From Candidatus Omnitrophota bacterium (GTDB lineage Bacteria > CAIJMQ01), in NCBI GenBank assembly GCA_018812925.1, contig JAHJCU010000007.1, positions 1 to 11,922 of the forward strand: a stretch of DNA of 11,922 nt. The letters are read 5' to 3'. This document shows, piece by piece, positions 1 through 11,922 of this stretch (within the stretch, counting starts at the first letter, position 1; each line of letters starts with the position of its first letter). The position numbers and the translations under genes were made by a program. The notes below the pieces were generated by a model that had not been told where the DNA came from, did not search any database, and worked only from the letters and a program-made list of their open reading frames with translations.

Positions 1-3000
1 CTTAACGACATCACACCAAACAGTAAACTCACTTTTAACGACGGCGATACATATACAATAACAGGTGCTGCAGGATTAAACCTTGACGGACAAGCGTTAG
101 GCACAGAGGTAATCATACTTAGTGATAACCCAGGCACACAATTTACTTTTGATTTGACAGGTGGCGCTCAAACTGTAAACCGTGTTAATGTTACAGATTC
201 CGCTGCATCAAGTAACAACATAACTGCTAATAATTCCGTCAATAATGGCGGTAATGATGATGGCGACCCTGTGCCTCACTGGATATTTAGTAATGTAACT
301 ATCACTGTTCCTTCTGCGGGTACCACTGTAGGTCAAACACCAACAGTTATCGGAACTGCTCCACCTGGGAATATTGTAATTTTAAAAGGAACCGTAGGAG
401 CTGTACCCTTACAACAAGTAGCTTCTGCAACTGCTGATGCCCTTGGCAATTATATAATAATGCAATCCAATTATACTGCTAATTTGGACATAGCAGCTCC
501 CAACAGCATAAGAGCTGAAGTAGGAGTAATTCAAAGTTCTCTTTTAAATATTAATGTTGTTGCAACGCCAACTTCCAATCAAGTTCCAACTATTATTTCA
601 CCTGCCGAAGGAAGTTCTGTAAATGGAAATAAACCGACCATTACTGGAAAAGGGGTAGCGGGACAAACAGTAACTTTAACAGTTAAGGATGCAGCAGGTA
701 ATCTGCTTTTGACCGATGTTGCTACTACCATAGTAGATGGTTTGGGAAACTGGACAATCTCAAGTCCGGATTATACTACCAACTTAGTAAAAGGAATAAA
801 TTATTTAAGTGCAACTGTTTCAGGTACTGTAAGCGATATAAGAACTATCAGTTTAACTGACCCTTTTGGTATAGTATTTGATTCTACAACTGATAACCCC
901 ATTGGAGGGGCAACAGTAACTATCTATAACAATGCTACCGGTCTTCCCTGCACTCCCGGGGTGGAAATAGCATTAGCTGATGCCAATCCTCAAACTACGG
1001 GTGCCGGTGGCGCTTACAGTTTCTTATGCGCTAACGGAAATTATTATATTATAGTAAGCGCTTTGGGTTACAGCTATCCTTCAACCAAAACCAGTTTCCC
1101 TGCCGGAAGAGTAATTGTGAACGGCTCTAAAGGGGAGGTCTTTACAGTAGCAAGCGTAATTATACAAATGGACCATCCTCTTGACTCGGGTAATCAGCTC
1201 TTAAGAATCAAGAAAGATGTTAATAAAAAAGAGGTGGTTATCGGCGAAGTAGTTACATATACAATAACCATAAAAAATGAAACCGCATCTGATGTGACAA
1301 ATGTTTACTTGGAAGATATGATTCCGGCCGGCTTCAAATATATAAATGACAGAGCAATTTTAGATAATAGGCAAATATCCAATCCCACAGGAAATCGTCC
1401 AATTACATTTAATATCGGCACAGTATCATCCGGACAAACACGCATTCTAAAATATCAATTAGTAGTTGGTTCTGGTGTAACTACAGGTAATTATAAAAAT
1501 TCTGCTGTGTGTAAATATTCTGATGGGACAATCATATCCAATAAAGATTCTGAAACCGTTAAGGTTACACTTGACCCATTATTTGATTTGGGAACAATTA
1601 TCGGCAAGGTATTTTGGGATAGGAATGAAGACAGAAGTCAGAATACAGATGACAGAAGGCAGAAAACAGAAATAGGAATTAGAGGTGTGCAAATAGTTAT
1701 GGAAGATGGCACAATTGTTACCACAGATGCAGATGGCAAATACCATGTGCCTGCAATTTTACCCGGAAGACATGTATTAAGGATTAATGAAAGGACCTTG
1801 CCCGAAGGAGCATATTTAACCACTGATAAAGTTGTCATAGTGGATATTACACCAGGAATATTAGCGAAAGTTAATTTTGGAGTAAATATAAAAGGCAGAA
1901 GACACCTGCCCGCTTCGCAGCAGGCGGGGAGGACAGAAGACAGAGAAGAGAATGGGAAAAGTCCCGCCATTGCGAGCCCCGATTCCGTTTATCGAGGCGT
2001 GGCAATCTCAAACAATCAAGTAGAAGCAAAATCGGAGTTGGCATCGGATAGAATATATGCAAAAGATAAACAGGCAAACACACAAACCGGTCAACCCGCT
2101 GACCCGCAAACCTACACGCGGGATGAGCAAGAAGAAAATCGTCTTTTCTTTGTTGTAATGGGCGATGCAAAAGCGGGCTATAATTTTAATAAAGGTGATA
2201 TGGAACCGGTTGAAGATAACGATAAATTTAATGAAGGATTCTGGTCCGAAGGAAAATTCGCTTATTACTTAAAAGGAAAAATCAAAGGTAAATATTTAAT
2301 TACTTCGAGTTTGGATACCCAAAGAGAACAAAAAGAATTGTTCCGGAATTTAGACCCTGATAAATATTACCCGGTCTACGGAGATGCTTCTACTATAAAT
2401 TATGATGCGACAAATACTCAAGGAAGACTTTATCTTTTAATAGAATGGGATAAATCCAAAGTCTTATGGGGTAATTATGTAACCGGTCTGACAGATACGG
2501 AATTTGCCCAGTTCAACCGCACTTTATACGGAGGAAAAATACATTTTGAAAGTGTCTCCTCTACTAAATTCGCAGAACCTGTCACAAAATTGATTGTCTT
2601 TGATGCACGCGCTAAACAAAGAGCAGCACATAATGAATTTGTTGGCACGGGCGGTTCGCTCTTCTATTTAAAACACTCTAACATCATTGAGGGTTCCGAA
2701 AAAATAAAGATTGAAATCAGAGATAAAATAACCGGTATTGTCCTAACCACAAAACAAATGCAGTCAGGTTTTGACTATGAAATTGATTATTCAAACGGTA
2801 GAGTAATTTTTGGGCAATCCGTCTCTTCTATCGCCGAATCAAGTTCTATTATTTCTTCCCAGTTATTGGATGGAAACTCTGTTTGTGTAGTAGTGGACTA
2901 CGAATATGAAGCTAAAGATAATTATGATAAAGGTACTCAAGGTGTGCGTCTGCAGCAATCCTTGACCGATTATTTAACTGTAGGTGGAACCTATGTCAAA

Positions 3001-5244
3001 GAAGAACAGCAAGATAAAGATTACGAACTGAAGGGGCTGGATGTAACAATTCATTTAGGAAAAAATATTGCAGTAACAGCCGAACAAGCAGAAAGCAAAT
3101 CCGGGCAAGCCGGGAGTTTTATCTCCACGGATGGCGGACTAAGCTTCACCGAATTAACCAATTTAGATAGTGATAAAGGTAAAGCTTATGGAATAAAATC
3201 CGAAGCGTATCTTTTTGATAAATTGGGTTTAACGAATTACTATAAAAAAATTGAAGGAGGGTTCTCTTCAACTTCCACCATTTCGCAACAAGGCAAAGAA
3301 TTATTCGGAGCAGGATTGACTTGGGATATAAATCCAAAAACGAAATTGGCGTTGTCGCACGACGAGCAAAAACTCATTGATGACGGAAATCCTCAAACTC
3401 AACTACAAGTAGGCGCCGAGGAAACAAAAACTACCTCTGCCCAGATAACACATCAAATGGAGAAATTGCGGCTTACCGGTGAATATAGACATCAGGCTGT
3501 AACCGACAAAAATGACGAGTTTGAATCCGAGACGAATAGAGATGAAGATACAGTTGCAGCAAAGGCAGATTATAAATTAACAGAAAAAGTTGGCATATCT
3601 TTAGAGCAGCAGACAACGTTGAGAGGTGAAACAAATAACCAGACCTCCGTAGGTATAAGCGCCCAGCCCAACGAGCGTTTATTTTTCAAAGCAAAACAGA
3701 CTGTCGGCACGGAAGGTTCTGCTACAAGCGTAGGAACAACGGTAAATATAAACGATAAAATATCTGCACATACAACCCTTGCTGTCGCCGATTCTATGGA
3801 AAAAGGCCAAACCCAATCGGTTGTTGTAGGTTCCCAACAAAAAGTTAACGAAGGATTAGTCATTACTACGGATAAAACATATGCAAAAAATAGAGATACG
3901 TTAATTGAAGGTAACACATTAGGTTTGACTAAAGAAAAAGATAACCGAAAATTAAAAGGGGCTTTTACGCAACAACAGTCTCAAAACAATACTGAAACCG
4001 CCAACACCAATATCTTTGGTCTATCAGGTGATATTAACGATAAATTAGCTATGATGGGAAGTTTCGAGCGCGGAGTTGTCCAAAATCACGATGGCACACA
4101 AGCAACACGCAGTGCAGGAGCCTTGGGAATGAGTTATGCAGATAAAAACCCGGAAACGGACAATATTCGTCTTCAAGCATCAAGCAAATTAGAACTTCGC
4201 ACAGATGACGGCGAAGAAGACAAAAAACAATATTTTATATATAACGCTCTTAAATGGCAATCCACTATAAATACAACTCTTTTTGCCAAAATAAATATAT
4301 CGCAGACCGAGAATACCAGCAACGACTCAACTGAAGCACAATATAAAGAATTGGTAACAGGAGTAGCTTACAGGCCAATATATTTTGACCGACTAAATCT
4401 TCTTGCAAGATATACATATTTAGAGGATAGCTTACCTTCGGACCAAACTGATTTCTCTAATATTGAAGAAGAAAGAGCGCATACTTTATCGGGAGAGCTT
4501 GCATATGATTTAACCGATAAATTGCAACTCGTTGAGAAATTGGCTTATAAATTCGGGGAAGAAAAAGTAGAAGGATTTGATTTTACGAAAACACAGACAT
4601 GGTTGAACATTCACCGCCTTAATTATAATATTAATAACAACTGGCAATTCGGCGCAGAATATAGATTCCTTACTCAAAAAGAAGCAGAGGATTCCAAACA
4701 GGGCGCATTGGTGGAAGTAAATAGGAAAATCGGTGAATTTGTTCAAATTGGCGCGGGTTACAACTTTACCGAATTCAACGATGACCTAACCTACCTTGAT
4801 TATACTTCTCAAGGTCCATTTGTAAGATTAACCGCAATGCTCTATGACCGGACCCCGGAAGAGGTAGAGCGCGCCCGACAAAGAGTTCAGGAAGAAAAAA
4901 TAAACCAGTGGATATGGGAATTGGTAAACGAAGAATTAGCTAAACCTAATAGTCCTATTATGCTAAAGTTGAATTATTACTACAATACAGCTAAAAAATT
5001 ACAAGCTGAGGGCAAGACAAAAGACGCAAAGGAACTCTACGAAAAGATTCAGATGACGTCGGATATGATGTATAATGAAGCCGAAAAATATATTCGCAGA
5101 CGACTTGAGCTGGAGAAAAGAATTAAAGAGGACAACCAGATTGCTTTGGTATACTATAAACAAGGTAAATTCAAAGAAGCAAAAGAATTATGGGAGAAAA
5201 TCACAAAAGAAGCCAAACCAGAACCAATATTTATAAAGTTTTGA
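1..5244 (+). CDS. Giant multidomain surface protein with outer-membrane beta-barrel and TPR tail (5' partial)
   Basis: The frame is open from base 1 to the TGA at 5242-5244, so the true start lies upstream; the TTG at 154 is not a credible start. Residues are counted from base 1 (1747 in all). About 1-95 resemble the end of an adhesin repeat (NRVNVTDS...HWIF). 98-190 and 193-287 are two Ig-like domains. 288-395 is carboxypeptidase-regulatory-like. 400-525 is DUF11-like (TYTITIKN...LEDMIPAGF). 529-630 is SdrD-B-like (GKVFWDRN...TDADGKYHVP). 631-713 is a hydrophilic linker built on palindromic DNA. From 714 a conserved segment (FFVVMGDAKAGYNF, YLKGKIKGKYLITSSLD, LDPDKYYPVYGD, GNYVTGLTDTEF) leads into many amphipathic strands ending near 1615 (GPFVRLTAMLY). 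1616-1747 is helical and TPR-like. Family knowledge suggests an outer-membrane barrel with an exposed adhesin-like part. The tail would then be periplasmic (inference). The substrate or partner is unknown. Confidence 0.85.
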   Translation, partial: LNDITPNSKLTFNDGDTYTITGAAGLNLDGQALGTEVIILSDNPGTQFTFDLTGGAQTVNRVNVTDSAASSNNITANNSVNNGGNDDGDPVPHWIFSNVTITVPSAGTTVGQTPTVIGTAPPGNIVILKGTVGAVPLQQVASATADALGNYIIMQSNYTANLDIAAPNSIRAEVGVIQSSLLNINVVATPTSNQVPTIISPAEGSSVNGNKPTITGKGVAGQTVTLTVKDAAGNLLLTDVATTIVDGLGNWTISSPDYTTNLVKGINYLSATVSGTVSDIRTISLTDPFGIVFDSTTDNPIGGATVTIYNNATGLPCTPGVEIALADANPQTTGAGGAYSFLCANGNYYIIVSALGYSYPSTKTSFPAGRVIVNGSKGEVFTVASVIIQMDHPLDSGNQLLRIKKDVNKKEVVIGEVVTYTITIKNETASDVTNVYLEDMIPAGFKYINDRAILDNRQISNPTGNRPITFNIGTVSSGQTRILKYQLVVGSGVTTGNYKNSAVCKYSDGTIISNKDSETVKVTLDPLFDLGTIIGKVFWDRNEDRSQNTDDRRQKTEIGIRGVQIVMEDGTIVTTDADGKYHVPAILPGRHVLRINERTLPEGAYLTTDKVVIVDITPGILAKVNFGVNIKGRRHLPASQQAGRTEDREENGKSPAIASPDSVYRGVAISNNQVEAKSELASDRIYAKDKQANTQTGQPADPQTYTRDEQEENRLFFVVMGDAKAGYNFNKGDMEPVEDNDKFNEGFWSEGKFAYYLKGKIKGKYLITSSLDTQREQKELFRNLDPDKYYPVYGDASTINYDATNTQGRLYLLIEWDKSKVLWGNYVTGLTDTEFAQFNRTLYGGKIHFESVSSTKFAEPVTKLIVFDARAKQRAAHNEFVGTGGSLFYLKHSNIIEGSEKIKIEIRDKITGIVLTTKQMQSGFDYEIDYSNGRVIFGQSVSSIAESSSIISSQLLDGNSVCVVVDYEYEAKDNYDKGTQGVRLQQSLTDYLTVGGTYVKEEQQDKDYELKGLDVTIHLGKNIAVTAEQAESKSGQAGSFISTDGGLSFTELTNLDSDKGKAYGIKSEAYLFDKLGLTNYYKKIEGGFSSTSTISQQGKELFGAGLTWDINPKTKLALSHDEQKLIDDGNPQTQLQVGAEETKTTSAQITHQMEKLRLTGEYRHQAVTDKNDEFESETNRDEDTVAAKADYKLTEKVGISLEQQTTLRGETNNQTSVGISAQPNERLFFKAKQTVGTEGSATSVGTTVNINDKISAHTTLAVADSMEKGQTQSVVVGSQQKVNEGLVITTDKTYAKNRDTLIEGNTLGLTKEKDNRKLKGAFTQQQSQNNTETANTNIFGLSGDINDKLAMMGSFERGVVQNHDGTQATRSAGALGMSYADKNPETDNIRLQASSKLELRTDDGEEDKKQYFIYNALKWQSTINTTLFAKINISQTENTSNDSTEAQYKELVTGVAYRPIYFDRLNLLARYTYLEDSLPSDQTDFSNIEEERAHTLSGELAYDLTDKLQLVEKLAYKFGEEKVEGFDFTKTQTWLNIHRLNYNINNNWQFGAEYRFLTQKEAEDSKQGALVEVNRKIGEFVQIGAGYNFTEFNDDLTYLDYTSQGPFVRLTAMLYDRTPEEVERARQRVQEEKINQWIWELVNEELAKPNSPIMLKLNYYYNTAKKLQAEGKTKDAKELYEKIQMTSDMMYNEAEKYIRRRLELEKRIKEDNQIALVYYKQGKFKEAKELWEKITKEAKPEPIFIKF
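1631..1672 (+). repeat. In-frame heptamer tandem array (six units, NCAGANN) inside the CDS
   Basis: Six consecutive 7-nt units read ACAGAAG, TCAGAAT, ACAGATG, ACAGAAG, GCAGAAA, ACAGAAA. The 42 nt equal 14 codons, so the reading frame is kept. The array encodes the polar stretch around EDRSQNTDDRRQKT, at the point where SdrD-B-like domains normally have a short Asp/Gly-rich loop (DRNGNGxxDxGE type). It therefore looks like an insertion into, or replacement of, that loop. The 7-nt period is visible directly; a mobile or repetitive origin is inferred. Confidence 0.7.
1895..1946 (+). repeat. Composite element: GC-rich palindrome embedded in ACAGAAG heptamers
   Basis: Arms 1905-1913 (CCTGCCCGC) and 1924-1932 (GCGGGGAGG) pair at 8 of 9 positions around a 10-nt loop. 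An alternative stem joins CCTGC 1905-1909 with GCAGG 1920-1924. On the left lies GCAGAAG (1895-1901); on the right lie ACAGAAG (1933-1939) and ACAGAGA (1940-1946). The same heptamer family as the array at 1631-1672 therefore brackets the palindrome. A triplet ACA sits at both palindrome borders (1902-1904, 1933-1935). That could be a target duplication, or simply heptamer phase. The element is translated in frame as part of GRRHLPASQQAGRTEDREE. Confidence 0.65.
1966..2010 (+). repeat. REP-like palindromic element translated in frame
   Basis: Outer arms ATTGC (1969-1973) and GCAAT (2002-2006) are perfect. Inner arms GCCCCGAT (1976-1983) and ATCGAGGC (1991-1998) pair at 7 of 8 positions around a 7-nt loop. 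The edges, CCATTGCGAGC on the left and GTGGCAATCTCA on the right, resemble the abundant intergenic CATTGCGAG.../...GGCAATCTC repeats I recall from many bacterial genomes; that match is from memory. Here it encodes PAIASPDSVYRGVAISN in the linker between the SdrD-B-like domain and the barrel. A small stem, GGGA 1954-1957 with TCCC 1962-1965, lies just upstream. Confidence 0.65.
2089..2122 (+). repeat. Double-hairpin GC-rich element inside the CDS
   Basis: GGTCA (2089-2093) and TGACC (2100-2104) form a perfect stem around the 6-nt loop ACCCGC. CCCGC (2103-2107) and GCGGG (2118-2122) form a second stem around a 10-nt loop. CCCGC also occurs directly repeated at 2095-2099, so the second arm could pair with either copy. 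The block encodes GQPADPQTYTRDE at the end of the linker, shortly before the conserved barrel-associated segment. It stands out by GC content from the A-rich flanking sequence. Confidence 0.5.
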
Positions 5245-5276: not shown

Positions 5277-8200
5277 ATGCAAAAGATAATAATGGCAAGT
5301 AAACATTTGACCTGCGCAATCATAGTCGCATTTTTATTTTTATGCCCTTCAAGATGTGTTTTATCCGAAGAAGCAGAAAAATCACAGTCTCAGCAAACAC
5401 CGGAAATAAAAGGGTATAACTATAATTTAAAAGACTTATTGGGAAAAGTGGAACAAAATCTTGAGGAAGTTGATAAAAAGTTAAAAGAGGAAGAAGTTAA
5501 AAAACAAAATGAAGAAAGAGACACTGCTATAAGAAAACATTTTGAGAAAGGGAACCAACTTTATCAAGAAGGAAAATTCAAAGAAGCAAAACAACAGTGG
5601 CAAAAAGCGTTGGAAATCAGTAAAGACCCTGAGATGAAAGGCTATATCAAAAAAGCTGAAAGTAGAGCCAAAGAAAAAGAATTGGCAAGGAAAAAAGAAG
5701 AGCAAGAGCGACAAAAGCAACTTGAAGCTGAAGCAAAAGAGAGAGAACGCGTGGAAAAGGAAAAACAGAAACAATTGGAACTAGTGAAAAAGGGACAGGA
5801 AAACAAGGCAAAAGAAGAAGAATTAGTGCGTAAGAAAGAAGAACAAGAACAACAAAAGAGGCTTGAAATCGAAGCAAAAAAGAAAGAGCGCAAATTAAAC
5901 GAACAGGCAAAAACAATCTACAACGAAGCAGTATCTCTTTATAGAGTCAAAAACTATGAGCAGGCACAACTCAAATTTAACCAAGTAGCAAAATTAATCC
6001 CAAATTACGCAGGGACCGCTTCTTATCTGCGTCGTATCCCTCAAGATATACAAAAAGAAAAAAAACGCATTGAAAACGAAAAGAAGCGCCAGGAAGAATT
6101 AGCCCGGAAAGAACAGGAAAAACAGCAGAGATTAGAACAAACTCGGTTAGAGAAAGAAAAAACACAAAAAGAAACGGAACTAAAGAAACAACAAAAACTT
6201 GAACCAACGCGGAAAGAACAAGTACGTTCAGAAGCTGAAAAGAAACATCAGGAAGAACTTGCGCGCAAAAAAGAAGAACAGGAACGACAGAAACAGATAG
6301 TTGCTGAACAAAAAGAAAAGGAACGTTTAGCAATTGAGAAAAAACAACAGGAAGAATTAGTCAGGAAAGAACCAGAGCGCAAACAAAAGCAAGAACAAGC
6401 CAGATTAGAGAAAGAACAAAAAGAAAAACAGCGCTTGGAAGCTGAAAAAACACGGCAGGAAAAATTAGCCCAGGCAAAAAATATTGACTCCATATACAAA
6501 AAAGCAATTTCTTCTTATAGAAAAAATCAGTTTGAGGAAGCATCTTCTCTCTTCAAGCAAATCTTATCCCTAGACCCTGAACATAGAACAGCAAAGGACT
6601 ATTTAAACAAGAAAATACCTAGTAGGATAAAACAACTCGAAATGGCTAAACAACGGGAAGAAGAACGCGGGCAAATAGCCGAACAAAAGCGTTCCGAGAA
6701 GCAAATACAAGAAAAACAAGAATTAAAAAAGGAAAGTAAGGCTGAAACCAAAGATAAAAAAATCGATACTAAAGCAGAAGAATCAAAGCCCACATTAAAT
6801 GAAACTGCAAGAGCAATATACAAAGAAGCAATAGCTCTTTACAATTCCGGAGAATATACCCAAGCTAAAGTAAAATTCGAACAGATAAAACAGATTGCTC
6901 CCAACCATCCGAATACTGATTACTATCTTGGACGCATACCCCAAAAAATAACAGAATACAAAGAACGGGTTGAAGCCGAAAATAAGCAAGAAAAAGAAAC
7001 AACAAAAAGGGAAAAGATAGCTTCTCTATCTAATAAAGCAATCTCTTTTTATGATGAAGACAAACTTGCCGAAGCAGCTGCCTTGTTTAAGCAAATTTTA
7101 TCTTTAGACCCCGAAAACAGAAGAGCTCAATACTATTTAGAGAGTAAACTACCATCTGATGTTGTAAAACTCACTAAATCAGAACAGGGAAAACAAGATA
7201 TAGAGAAAGTCGAAAAAGAGCGCAAACAAAAACAATTAGAATTAGAAGCAGAAAAGCAACGTCAAGAAGAAATTGCGCGTAAGAACAAAGAACAGGAGCT
7301 CCAAAAACAATTAAAAGCTGAAGCAAAAGAAAAAGAACGCGTGGGAAAGGAAAAGCAGGAACAACTGGTAGCTGAACAGAAAGAGCAAGAGCGTCAATTA
7401 AACGAACAGGCAAAGGCAATATATAACGAAGCAGTTTCGCTTTATAGAGCCAAAAACTATCAGCAGGCGCAGGTCAAGTTTGAACAGACGGCGAAATTAA
7501 TTCCGCACTATGCAAGTAGCGATTACTATCTAAAACGCATAACTCAGGATATACAAAAAAAGAAAGAACGTTTAGCGGCTGAAAAGAAAAGAAAAGACGA
7601 ATTAACACGTAAAGAACAGGAAAAACAGCAGAAATTAGAACAAGCCCGTCTTGAACAAGAACGCAAAAAACAAGAGAAAATTAACCGTCAAGAGGTACAA
7701 GACAAACAGAAAGAAGAACAAGAACAACAAAAGAGTCTCGAAGCCGAAACCGGGAAAAAAAAGATCAAATTAAAAGAACAAGCAAAATCAACCTACAAAG
7801 AAGCGCTCTCTCTTTATAGAACTAAGAATTTTAAAAAAGCAAAAACAAAGTTTGAGCAGACAACGCAAATTATTCCTCACTATTCAAAAACCGATTATTA
7901 CCTTGCACGCATAGCTGAATATATCCAAAAAGAAAAAGAGCAAAAACAGAAGGAAGAAGAGCTTGCGCGACAAAAAGAAGAACAAGAACGACAAAAGCAA
8001 CTTGAAGCCGAAGCAAAAGAAAAAGAACAAATACTAAACGAACAGGCAATGAGTTTATATAAAGAAGGGATTACTCTTTATCGCGATAAAGAATATACCG
8101 AAGCGCAGGAAAAATTAATCCAGACGGCTAAATTAATCCCGCATTATGCCAAGACCGATTATTACCTTGCACGTATAACCCAAGATATACAGAGAGAAAA

Positions 8201-8537
8201 AGAGCGTCAGGAATTGGAGCGTAAAAGAAATCAAGAGAAGATAGAAAGAGAACAAAGAATAAAACAAGAGGCCGAAGAAAAAAAACAAGAACGGTTGCAA
8301 AAAGAAAAACAGAAACAACTAAAATCCGAGAAAAAAGAAAACAAATCGTCCCAAAACAGGGAAATAAACACCCTTTACAAAAAAGCTATTTCTTTATATA
8401 ACCGCGACCAATTAAACGAAGCAAGGGTCCTGTTTCTTGAAATTTTATCTTTAGACCCAATCGAACAAAAGGCTTTGGACTACATAAAGAATAAAATTCC
8501 AAGTCGCACAAAGAAACTACAAGAAACAATAAAGTAA
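5277..8537 (+). CDS. Exported TPR-repeat/coiled-coil protein, partner candidate of the barrel protein
   Basis: The product is 1086 residues from ATG 5277 to TAA 8535-8537. The N-terminus MQKIIMASKHLTCAIIVAFLFLC has a basic segment and hydrophobic core of a Sec signal peptide or anchor. Cysteines are present, but no clear lipobox. The mature part alternates about nine TPR-like units of 50-60 residues with long K/E/Q/R-rich helical segments that look like coiled coil or single alpha-helix. Units start near residues 82, 208, 400, 508, 578, 709, 833, 921 and 1027. It follows the barrel gene by 32 bp and precedes the heptose kinase by 37 bp, so co-transcription is likely. Family knowledge of TPRs suggests protein-protein scaffolding; an envelope-spanning tether or barrel-binding periplasmic scaffold is inference. 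The coiled-coil parts resemble TolA-like spacers in composition only. No enzymatic motif is visible and no specific family is recognised. Confidence 0.8.
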   Translation: MQKIIMASKHLTCAIIVAFLFLCPSRCVLSEEAEKSQSQQTPEIKGYNYNLKDLLGKVEQNLEEVDKKLKEEEVKKQNEERDTAIRKHFEKGNQLYQEGKFKEAKQQWQKALEISKDPEMKGYIKKAESRAKEKELARKKEEQERQKQLEAEAKERERVEKEKQKQLELVKKGQENKAKEEELVRKKEEQEQQKRLEIEAKKKERKLNEQAKTIYNEAVSLYRVKNYEQAQLKFNQVAKLIPNYAGTASYLRRIPQDIQKEKKRIENEKKRQEELARKEQEKQQRLEQTRLEKEKTQKETELKKQQKLEPTRKEQVRSEAEKKHQEELARKKEEQERQKQIVAEQKEKERLAIEKKQQEELVRKEPERKQKQEQARLEKEQKEKQRLEAEKTRQEKLAQAKNIDSIYKKAISSYRKNQFEEASSLFKQILSLDPEHRTAKDYLNKKIPSRIKQLEMAKQREEERGQIAEQKRSEKQIQEKQELKKESKAETKDKKIDTKAEESKPTLNETARAIYKEAIALYNSGEYTQAKVKFEQIKQIAPNHPNTDYYLGRIPQKITEYKERVEAENKQEKETTKREKIASLSNKAISFYDEDKLAEAAALFKQILSLDPENRRAQYYLESKLPSDVVKLTKSEQGKQDIEKVEKERKQKQLELEAEKQRQEEIARKNKEQELQKQLKAEAKEKERVGKEKQEQLVAEQKEQERQLNEQAKAIYNEAVSLYRAKNYQQAQVKFEQTAKLIPHYASSDYYLKRITQDIQKKKERLAAEKKRKDELTRKEQEKQQKLEQARLEQERKKQEKINRQEVQDKQKEEQEQQKSLEAETGKKKIKLKEQAKSTYKEALSLYRTKNFKKAKTKFEQTTQIIPHYSKTDYYLARIAEYIQKEKEQKQKEEELARQKEEQERQKQLEAEAKEKEQILNEQAMSLYKEGITLYRDKEYTEAQEKLIQTAKLIPHYAKTDYYLARITQDIQREKERQELERKRNQEKIEREQRIKQEAEEKKQERLQKEKQKQLKSEKKENKSSQNREINTLYKKAISLYNRDQLNEARVLFLEILSLDPIEQKALDYIKNKIPSRTKKLQETIK
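5521..8534 (+). repeat. Nine TPR-like units of three types (order N-A-B-A-B-A-A-A-B)
   Basis: Unit N (from about 5521) reads HFEKGNQLYQEGKFKEAK. Type A units start at about 5898, 6798, 7401, 7773 and 8037. Their pattern is IYxEAxxLYRxKxYxxAxxKFxQxxxLIPHY followed by TDYYLxRIxxDIQ. Type B units start at about 6471, 7008 and 8355, with the pattern YKKAISxYxxxxxxEAxxLFKQILSLDPE and a KIPSRxKxL end. Long identical DNA stretches link distant copies: 22 nt at 6108-6129 and 7611-7632, 20 nt at 7890-7909 and 8154-8173, and 20 nt at 5709-5728 and 7989-8008. This points to recent duplication or gene conversion. Unit boundaries are estimated by eye. Confidence 0.75.
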
Positions 8538-9868: not shown

Positions 9869-10993
9869 ATGGGCTTGAAAAAAGGAATGTATAGAAAGGT
9901 AATAGTAGTCTTGTTGGCCTTGGCGGTGGTAGGATACACTGTTGCCTTCTACGTCAAGAAAGCAAAGGAAGGGGTTGTTGATGAAGTCAAAATGAAACAG
10001 GCTGAAAAAATCAAAATAGGGCTTTTGTTAGAAACCTATGATGTCCAGCGCTGGGCAAGAGATGAGGCTTATTTCAGAGAAAAGGCAGAGGTGCTTGGTG
10101 CAGAGGTTATCCGCGCTGTGGCTAACGGCGATCAGGATAAACAGAACCAGCAGGCTGATACTTTTCTGACCATGGGAGTAAATGTTTTAGTGGTGGTTCC
10201 CAAGGAATTGAAGACCGCGGCCCGTATCATAAAGAGTGCACATGAGAAGAATGTTCCGGTACTTGCTTATGATAGGTTAATTCGGAACTGTGATTTGGAT
10301 ATGTATATAACTTTTGATAATGAAAAAGTCGGGTATTTACAGGCCAAGGGTATTCTCAAGAGTGTTCCGGAGGGCAACTTTATACTATTAGGCGGAGCTT
10401 CAAGTGATAATAACTCCAGACTGGTGCGTAACGGTCAGCTTAAAGCAATTGCTGAGCATGAAAAAAACACAGGTAAAAAGATAACGATTCTTGATGATTC
10501 TTTCCTGAATAACTGGGACAAAGAGGAAGCTCGGCAAAAGATTAGCAACATGCTGACGAAATTCAAAGCTGAAAATAAAGAAGTGCATGCTATTCTCGCT
10601 CCAAATGACAGCACGGCCGGCGGTGCTATTGCCGCCCTTAAAGCTGAAAGATTGGATGGTAAAGTGGCTGTCTCCGGACAGGATGCAGAATTAGGTGCCT
10701 GTCAGAGAATAGTTGAGGGCACACAGACAGTTACTGTTTACAAACCGGTTCGTGATTTGGCCAGCACCGCGGCTCAAATAGCAATAAAGTTGGCCAAAGG
10801 AGAAAAACCAGAGGAAATCGCTGCTTCACTTGGTTATAAGTCCAACATGCTGAACAACGGCACCAAAGATGTGCCTTCTATTTATCTTGAACCAATATTT
10901 GTAACTAAAGAGAATATGAGACAGACAGTAATTAAGGATGGTTGGCACAGCGAAGAAAAAGTTTACGCCCATGTCAAAGAGATTAATGAGTAA
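9869..10993 (+). CDS. xylF: D-xylose ABC transporter substrate-binding protein XylF
   Basis: The 374-residue protein is a periplasmic-binding-protein type 1 sugar binder that delivers D-xylose to the XylGH importer. XylF-like stretches include IGLLLETYDVQRW (50-62), AYDRLIRN (133-140), ITFDNEKVG (147-155), APNDSTAGGA (244-253), SGQDAELGACQRI (269-281) and TVYKPVRDLA (289-298). The N-terminus has a basic start and a hydrophobic segment at about 11-29 (VIVVLLALAVVGYTVAFYV). No lipobox cysteine is present, so it is either a Sec-cleaved periplasmic protein or membrane-anchored. xylG starts 11 bp after its stop. Own promoter and strong ribosome site lie upstream. The family call is firm; the exact sugar could differ, since related binders take other pentoses or hexoses. 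Confidence 0.88.
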   Translation: MGLKKGMYRKVIVVLLALAVVGYTVAFYVKKAKEGVVDEVKMKQAEKIKIGLLLETYDVQRWARDEAYFREKAEVLGAEVIRAVANGDQDKQNQQADTFLTMGVNVLVVVPKELKTAARIIKSAHEKNVPVLAYDRLIRNCDLDMYITFDNEKVGYLQAKGILKSVPEGNFILLGGASSDNNSRLVRNGQLKAIAEHEKNTGKKITILDDSFLNNWDKEEARQKISNMLTKFKAENKEVHAILAPNDSTAGGAIAALKAERLDGKVAVSGQDAELGACQRIVEGTQTVTVYKPVRDLASTAAQIAIKLAKGEKPEEIAASLGYKSNMLNNGTKDVPSIYLEPIFVTKENMRQTVIKDGWHSEEKVYAHVKEINE

Positions 10994-11004
10994 CGAGTAA
11001 AATA

Positions 11005-11922
11005 ATGGACTCAGAAAAAAAGAACCCATTGCTTGAGGCCAGAAACATAACCAAAGATTTCCCGGGAGTTCGGGCGCTTGATGGTGTGACTTTTGCTGCA
11101 TTCCCCGGTGAAATACATGCCTTGGTTGGTGAAAACGGCGCTGGCAAATCCACCCTTATTAAAATTCTCGCCGGTGTTTATCCTTATAACAGCTATGAAG
11201 GAGAGGTAGTTTTTAATAGTCAGCCGGTAACCTTCCGTACCATCCGCGATTCAAAGACACTGGGCATAGCTGTCATTCATCAAGAACTAGCGCTGGTCAA
11301 ACATATGACTGTTGGCGAAAATATTCTGCTTGGAGACGAACCGCACTATTGGGGGATTATTGATTATGGTCGGCTTTATAGTGAAGCTGAAGATATAATG
11401 AAACAGCTTGGAGTAACTGTTGATGTCTGTACAGAGATTGTTAACTTGGGAGTGGGCGAACAGCAGTTAGTCGAGATTGCCAAAGCTATCCGGAAGAAAG
11501 CCAATGTCCTTGTTTTGGATGAACCTACTGCCGCGTTAGCTGAGCATGAGATAGAAGTGCTGATGGGTATCATGCGCCGGTTAAAAGAACAAGGGACAGC
11601 TTTAATTTATATCTCTCATAAAATAGACGAAGTATTCAGTATTGCAGACAGGATTACTGTTTTGCGTGATGGTCAAACCGTAGATAGTGATACTGTTGGA
11701 AACTGGACACGCGAGAGTGTAGTGCGGGCTATGGTTGGACGAGAATTAACAGATATGTTCCCTAAAGTTGAGCATCAGCCAGGGAAAGTTATTTTTGAAG
11801 TGGAGGGTTTGTCTTTAGAAGACCCTGAAGTCCCGGGTCGTATGCTCTTCAAAGATGTTTCTTTCGATTTAAGAGAGAGGGAAATTTTAGGTATTGCCGG
11901 ATTAATGGGCGCGGGACGAACA
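11005..11922 (+). CDS. xylG: Xylose ABC transporter ATP-binding protein XylG (3' partial)
   Basis: The frame is open from ATG 11005 to the end of the window, giving 306 of the roughly 500 residues usual for this tandem-ATPase family. Domain 1 is complete. It has Walker A GENGAGKST (42-50), Q-loop HQE (92-94), signature LGVGEQQLVEIAKAI (148-162), Walker B VLVLDEPTAAL (168-178) and the switch histidine in ISHKIDEV (203-210). The signature is a variant of LSxGQ in which Gly replaces Ser and Glu replaces Gln. Domain 2 begins near 262 and is cut in its Walker A (GLMGAGRT). The product powers sugar uptake on the cytoplasmic side with a permease expected just downstream. The start follows the xylF stop by 11 bp with only a weak ribosome site, so translational coupling is likely. 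RbsA/MglA-type ATPases are close relatives; the xylF neighbour decides the name. Confidence 0.87.
   Translation, partial: MDSEKKNPLLEARNITKDFPGVRALDGVTFAAFPGEIHALVGENGAGKSTLIKILAGVYPYNSYEGEVVFNSQPVTFRTIRDSKTLGIAVIHQELALVKHMTVGENILLGDEPHYWGIIDYGRLYSEAEDIMKQLGVTVDVCTEIVNLGVGEQQLVEIAKAIRKKANVLVLDEPTAALAEHEIEVLMGIMRRLKEQGTALIYISHKIDEVFSIADRITVLRDGQTVDSDTVGNWTRESVVRAMVGRELTDMFPKVEHQPGKVIFEVEGLSLEDPEVPGRMLFKDVSFDLREREILGIAGLMGAGRT

Follow-up and report, generated by a model that had tools for sequence, protein, structure and literature searches.

Palindromic repeat DNA of 24–33 nt adds short peptides to many proteins of a Candidatus Omnitrophota bacterium and occurs in a variable protein linker

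The window, by which we mean the whole stretch of 11,922 nt that was analysed, belongs to a genome of 1.47 Mb that is 92% complete and of which the stretches around matches were examined. Gene calls combine open reading frames (ORFs), Pfam matches and orthologs. The host ORF discussed here, which encodes a large surface-type protein, occupies positions 1–5244 of the forward strand, to which all coordinates of the window refer, and has an open 5' end at the edge of the window. By Pfam its product consists, in this order, of CarboxypepD-reg and DUF11 domains, an SdrD-B-like domain, a linker (residues 631–713, positions 1891–2139) and a C-terminal part. The C-terminal part, which a preliminary description of this DNA termed a barrel, has no Pfam match and, when compared with solved structures, no relative beyond weak TPR matches. 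A protein-level scan of the named genomes found no relative, and an Rfam search of the window returned no known RNA family. The next gene (5277–8537) encodes a protein of 1,086 residues, in which TPR units alternate with long charged repeats rich in Lys, Glu and Gln. At the end of the window (9869–11922) lie the substrate-binding protein and the ATPase of a xylose-type sugar ABC transporter, which are related to XylF and XylG at scores below the curated cut-offs.

The preliminary description proposed that the entire linker is built from palindromes, that three hairpins of several families are stacked in it, perhaps turned from selfish DNA into a putative surface spacer, and that the frame stays open through all of them. 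The last point is confirmed, since ORF 1–5244 is continuous and its frame unbroken across the whole linker region. Element 1 (1905–1928) is a 24-nt palindrome, CCTGCCCGCTTCGCAGCAGGCGGG, whose fold extends to position 1932 and which is translated within the peptide HLPASQQAG. Element 2 (1968–2007) is a palindrome of the form CATTGCGAGC...GTGGCAATC. The calculated folding energies of these two hairpins (-17.7 and -14.6 kcal/mol, respectively) are exceptional compared to the 36-nt windows of the same ORF, which have a mean of -3.3 kcal/mol (sd 2.6). The third hairpin (2089–2122) is weak, with a folding energy of -8.4 kcal/mol, or -10.7 kcal/mol if two more bases are included on each side. Elements 1 and 2 recur in the genome and belong to dispersed families. 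Element 3 does not: no second copy was found in its own genome at E ≤ 10, and we reject a dispersed repeat family for this single-copy sequence. Moreover, 24 nt that overlap element 3 (2081–2104), are unique in the genome and are bordered by CAAACC direct repeats are missing in the sister species G001, and we therefore regard element 3 as an indel and not as a demonstrated repeat family. Together the three elements account for approximately 90 of the approximately 250 nt of the linker, so that a linker made of palindromes throughout is an overstatement.

Element 1 interrupts a heptamer array of the GACAGAR type (1894–1946), whose flanking parts lie at 1894–1904 and 1929–1946. Removal of element 1 leaves an array with a lag-7 identity of 0.59, the same arrangement as at three other loci (L139, L135, L141). 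A stronger array of the GACAGAA type, which like the first was overlooked in the preliminary description, is found in the SdrD-B-like domain (1626–1670), where it encodes DRSQNTDDRRQKTE and reaches a lag-7 identity of up to 0.74, compared to a mean of 0.28. The corresponding stretch of the sister species is shorter and more canonical; at the protein level this region (residues 541–560) is 53% identical between the two species, with three gaps.

The ortholog of the host protein in G001 (L010) is 87% identical. Identity amounts to 91% for residues 561–630, 95% for residues 714–800 and 99% for residues 800–950, whereas the linker is 47% identical, with 23 gap columns. Between shared anchors the linker measures 274 nt in G001 and 253 nt in the window. 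Thus, the clean absence of residues 631–713 that might have been expected in a homologue is not observed; the sister species has a linker of similar length with other contents, namely two heptamer arrays and a longer element 2, but no element 1. The site of element 1 and its GACAGAR array is occupied in G001 by a TCAAATA/TCAAAAA heptamer array. Element 2 of G001 has a shorter loop and a longer right end (to CTCGCAATGACA), an extension that the copy in the window lacks, and a GACAGAR heptamer stretch that is 21 nt longer in G001 matches the point 2043–2044 of the window, after GAGTTGGCA. All linker indels between the two species are multiples of three, except within element 2, where changes of +5 and -20 nt compensate each other. 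As a consequence, the two species differ in the frame used for the right half of element 2 (GGCGTGGCAATCTC), which encodes RGVAISNNQ in the window and GRGNLKG in G001. Elements 1 and 2 are neither unique nor set in a conserved linker. Judged from these alignments, it is the open frame alone, and not the peptide, that is conserved, and the linker is a frame-tolerant site in which small repeats come and go. The simplest account is a passive one, in which a region constrained by little more than its open frame takes up any repeats that are active.

We then asked how widely element 1 is distributed. The pattern CCYGCCYGC-N(2,20)-GCRGGCRGG has 48 matches per strand in the genome of the window, which correspond to 46 distinct sites, and a control pattern has none in the same genome. 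A search of its own genome with the whole window gave 22 matches; leaving aside the self match, all of them are confined to element 1 and the sequence next to it. Most copies are 24–33 nt long and come in forms of 24, 25, 27 and 33 nt. Three species of one genus have 46, 16 and 4 copies. The oriented pattern is rare: it is found 45 times in the window's genome, 12 times in G001, three times in G002 and not at all in G003, a few times each in five further genomes (G007, G005, G004, G037, G156), and once or not at all in nearly all of approximately 185 others. In the collection of named genomes the 24/25-mer pattern recovers 20 stretches (L196–L215), all of the 24-nt form; 19 of them are in two groundwater Bacteroidia/Bacteroidetes assemblies and one is in a Desulfotomaculum assembly. 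The Bacteroidia copies have the identical 24-mer of the window, lie mostly between genes and mostly in a heptamer-like context, and a few are in frame in WD40 proteins. In IMG/VR the 24-mer occurs in two contigs only. One viral contig (L223:8782–8857) carries two copies of it in opposite orientation, each within a larger GC-rich palindrome. The ends of element 1 are CCTGCC and GGCGGG, the flanking bases show a weak bias, and flank counts across the sites reveal no strongly conserved target sequence. Among 20 loci with copies outside confirmed genes three tRNAs were found; none contains a copy and one has a copy close by.

Each of the other 45 sites was analysed together with 1.5 kb on either side. 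Twenty of these copies lie in frame within conserved genes recognised by Pfam. The hosts are V/A-ATPase subunit A, UvrC, an RsmD-like methyltransferase, LarC, RACo, a proton-antiporter subunit, HypF, PFK, ValRS, LigA, PheT, a DEAD-box helicase, ParB, PGK, a GHMP kinase, transketolase, the alpha subunit of 2-oxoacid:ferredoxin oxidoreductase, Lnt, an amidase and the C-terminal subunit of fumarase. Both orientations and all codon phases are used. Selection for elements that are open in all six frames is not needed to explain this, since shuffled sequences with this composition are open about equally often. For 19 of the 20 host genes orthologs were identified in G001, G002 and G003, and many of them lack, at the nucleotide level, exactly 24, 27, 33 or 51 nt, while their flanks are intact and no target is duplicated. 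The inserts measure exactly 33 nt in the DEAD helicase, PFK and V/A-ATPase A, and 24 nt in PGK, LarC and PheT; the site in PFOR alpha reads ...CATTCGGA[24]TAAAAAACC... A few sites are occupied in G001 as well (ParB, UvrC) or contain an altered copy there (RsmD-like, transketolase, Lnt), and at these sites G002 or G003 has no insert. Since G003, a member of another genus, lacks most inserts, insertion is the simpler direction of change. At some sites the G001 copy is altered and not absent (L130/L148, L137/L157), which indicates that internal change of copies also happens. In the best PDB alignments of PGK, PFK, LigA and the DEAD helicase the insert coincides with alignment gaps or breaks in connecting stretches. 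The notion of a tolerant landing site holds insofar as the element content of the linker varies between orthologs, but the linker is not special for element 1, which has entered ordinary enzymes too. The comparison with Rickettsia made in the preliminary description fits well: about 20 other genes carry element 1 in frame, most of them with clean empty sites in relatives.

The length of the copies depends on where they are found. All nine copies of the 24-nt form are in genes, whereas none of the nine copies of the 25-nt form, which has a TTCGCAA loop, is (Fisher p = 4 × 10−5 in this one genome). In a hand-curated set 21 of 21 coding copies, but only 14 of the remaining 25, have a length that is a multiple of three (p = 4 × 10−4); with an automatic classification of coding copies the bias towards multiples of three has p = 5 × 10−4 and one apparent exception, HypF. 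The length test rests on a single genome, the only one with enough copies. The split between 24 and 25 nt is as expected if selection removes insertions that break the frame. In HypF (L108, around 1490–1516) a 27-nt palindrome is nested exactly within a 24-nt copy of element 1, and its removal restores a perfect 24-mer. The total of 51 nt corresponds to 17 residues that are absent from the G002 and G003 orthologs.

Heptamer arrays are a recurrent neighbour of element 1. After deletion of the element, a lag-7 identity of at least 0.45 is reached at 14 of 45 sites, compared to 2.1% of the background (p = 3 × 10−13); of the control lags, 6, 8 and 9 gave nothing and lag 5 only p = 0.02. With a period of seven, each of the three frames yields one and the same heptapeptide cycle, and by arithmetic such arrays are therefore frame-neutral apart from their total length. 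GACAGAR arrays are also found in frame in genes for a MiaB-type radical SAM protein, LeuRS, another class I tRNA synthetase and a GltD-like protein of the genus (L077, L078, L095, L089). Element 2 (CATTGYGAGC...GTGGCAATC) has three copies in the genome of the window, 24 in G001, three in G002 and two in G003. Nearly all of them are intergenic, which makes the linker an unusual place for element 2; the ten papers listed by a literature search with its core were all unrelated. Finally, G002 has a second 27-nt palindrome family, CCCCACACC...GGTGTGGGG (L226–L229), with copies within TRCF/Mfd-like, TruB, thymidylate-synthase-like and fumarase genes, the last at the position that element 1 occupies in the fumarase of the window's genome.

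Taken as a whole, these observations are, with high probability, best explained by a tiny palindrome that spreads by precise insertion and is filtered by reading frame, and by a linker that accumulates several repeats. Element 1, in its forms of 24, 27 or 33 nt, would have spread by precise insertion, irrespective of orientation and codon phase and without target-site duplication, into intergenic DNA, heptamer tandem arrays and protein-coding genes. Insertions that hit tolerant loops or linkers and have a length divisible by three would survive purifying selection and leave 8–11 extra residues, and 25-nt copies would persist outside genes only. Element 2, the heptamer arrays and the CCCCACACC palindromes of G002 would behave in a related manner, and residues 631–713 are a frame-tolerant site in which several repeats have accumulated and turned over. 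Family membership, the precise presence or absence of copies in different species, the length filter, the single nested insertion and the turnover of the linker are observed directly. We infer that the elements are probably mobile today and that they may move as single-stranded hairpins under the control of a trans-acting enzyme, no gene for which was found in this genome.

The most serious alternative, which we consider unlikely, involves no mobility. Aided by hairpin formation, recombination or template switching between heptamer arrays and copies already present would have spread the repeats in the course of replication or repair. The strong 7-nt periodicity at the insertion sites would suit such a process, as would copies at one site that differ in their inner parts between sister species (33 nt in L103 and 24 nt in L180; L130 and L148). 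Moreover, neither a Y1 transposase (PF01797) was detected in the window's genome nor a reverse transcriptase in any of the four genomes searched, the latter leading us to reject reverse transcriptase or group II intron machinery. However, many empty sites show a clean addition to a target without homology to element 1 (e.g., L131/L166, L123/L175, L111/L178), and the complete 27-mer nested in a 24-mer also argues against this view.

Somewhat less probable is the view that the elements are classic REPs of the GTAG/CGTC superfamily, moved by a RAYT/Y1 HUH transposase whose gene has been lost or is not included in the assembly. REPs are imperfect palindromes of 20–40 nt, insertion without target duplication suits HUH/Y1 chemistry, and the incomplete assembly leaves room for such a gene. 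IS200-like Y1 genes are indeed present in G001 (L217, L218, L220, L221) and G002 (L216, L219). Yet it is the genome with most copies that has no Y1 match, flank counts show no conserved GTAG or CGTC adjoining the copies, and no full copy of element 1 or 2 was found within approximately 1.5 kb of the Y1 loci of G001 and G002. RAYT mobilisation thus has no support in the window's genome, nor flanking copies at the loci of the other two.

It is improbable that the palindromes are kept in genes because they serve a positive function, for example in transcript stability, in nucleoid organisation or in DNA uptake. The inner stem pairs partly change on both sides, with 86.1% of the cells paired and none of 500 shuffles reaching this value, which is consistent with selection for the hairpin in a small set of related sequences. 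Copies are also found on both strands and in genic as well as intergenic locations. Against such a function, most of the insertions are missing from other species of the genus, the copy number is low, and uptake sequences normally arise by point change and not by exact insertion. That the linker hairpins are chance products of a repeat-poor coding sequence under low constraint is very improbable: much of the linker is ordinary polar sequence and element 3 is unique and weak, but the exact or near-exact copies of elements 1 and 2 elsewhere contradict chance for both, leaving it for element 3 only, and the sister linker holds other known repeats at corresponding places.

If we return to a precisely inserted, frame-filtered palindrome, its nearest functional analogue is the RPE of Rickettsia together with the Wolbachia elements. 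Several families of these palindromes occupy intergenic positions and also interrupt, in frame, conserved genes that are unrelated to each other, and their host proteins presumably remain functional (PMC2229807, PMC10969869). Element 1 resembles RPE in being in frame in about 20 conserved genes and in having intergenic copies. RPE are, however, approximately 105–150 bp long and encode longer peptides, which makes them four to six times longer than the 24–33 nt, or 8–11 residues, of element 1. Moreover, unlike RPE with their own conserved peptide, element 1 is read in both orientations and all phases, and it belongs to a different lineage. Intragenic REPs of the GTAG and CGTC superfamilies are palindromes of 20–40 nt, some of them within ORFs, whose hosts include DNA repair genes, a DNA ligase, RNA helicases and tRNA synthetases (PMC3733652). 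Element 1 is likewise a multi-copy palindrome (46 sites, mostly 24–33 nt), but its ends lack GTAG/CGTC, no RAYT was found in its genome, and its copies are mostly single and not arranged in dimers or clusters. MITEs have a length of 70–300 bp (PMC3733652). With them element 1 shares that it is short, non-coding, non-autonomous, dispersed palindromic DNA; it differs in being several times smaller and in having exact empty sites without target-site duplication, the length of the insert being that of the element.

Element 1 also has features of the cyanobacterial SDR, with which we compared it by description. Elhai et al. (2008) reportedly described these as hairpins of 21–27 nt, often within heptameric tandem repeats and nested, and proposed that they are mobile. 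Element 1 is a dispersed hairpin too, its 24-, 25- and 27-nt forms fall within this range whereas the 33-nt forms exceed it, it shares the heptamer context and one nested copy, and it is found in a different lineage. To our knowledge, in-frame insertion into many housekeeping enzymes with a length filter of 24 versus 25 nt is not a described hallmark of SDR. The cyanobacterial STRR consist of seven-base units in dispersed arrays that are sites for small palindromes; unlike them, the heptamer arrays described here are also in frame within conserved proteins such as the MiaB-type protein and LeuRS. We tentatively propose, short of regarding it as probable, that element 1 is a mobile palindrome of 24–33 nt that inserts precisely, without target duplication or an encoded or recognisable transposase, crosses phyla, routinely adds 8–11 residues to conserved enzymes and comes in lengths of 24 and 25 nt that separate gene-compatible from excluded copies.

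Protein-coding palindromes are best known from Rickettsia, Wolbachia and scattered intragenic REPs. Here, palindromic repeat DNA of a much smaller kind, 24–33 nt in length and from another lineage, adds short peptides to many proteins. The linker illustrates that debris of repeats can give rise to part of a protein, and that two sister species can use different frames of one and the same DNA. The system makes testable how a precise 24-nt insertion can take place without a visible transposase, and in what way the length of a mobile repeat responds to selection on the reading frame. Finally, since filled and empty sites are paired in well over 12 conserved enzymes, the cost of an inserted peptide of 8–11 residues is directly measurable.
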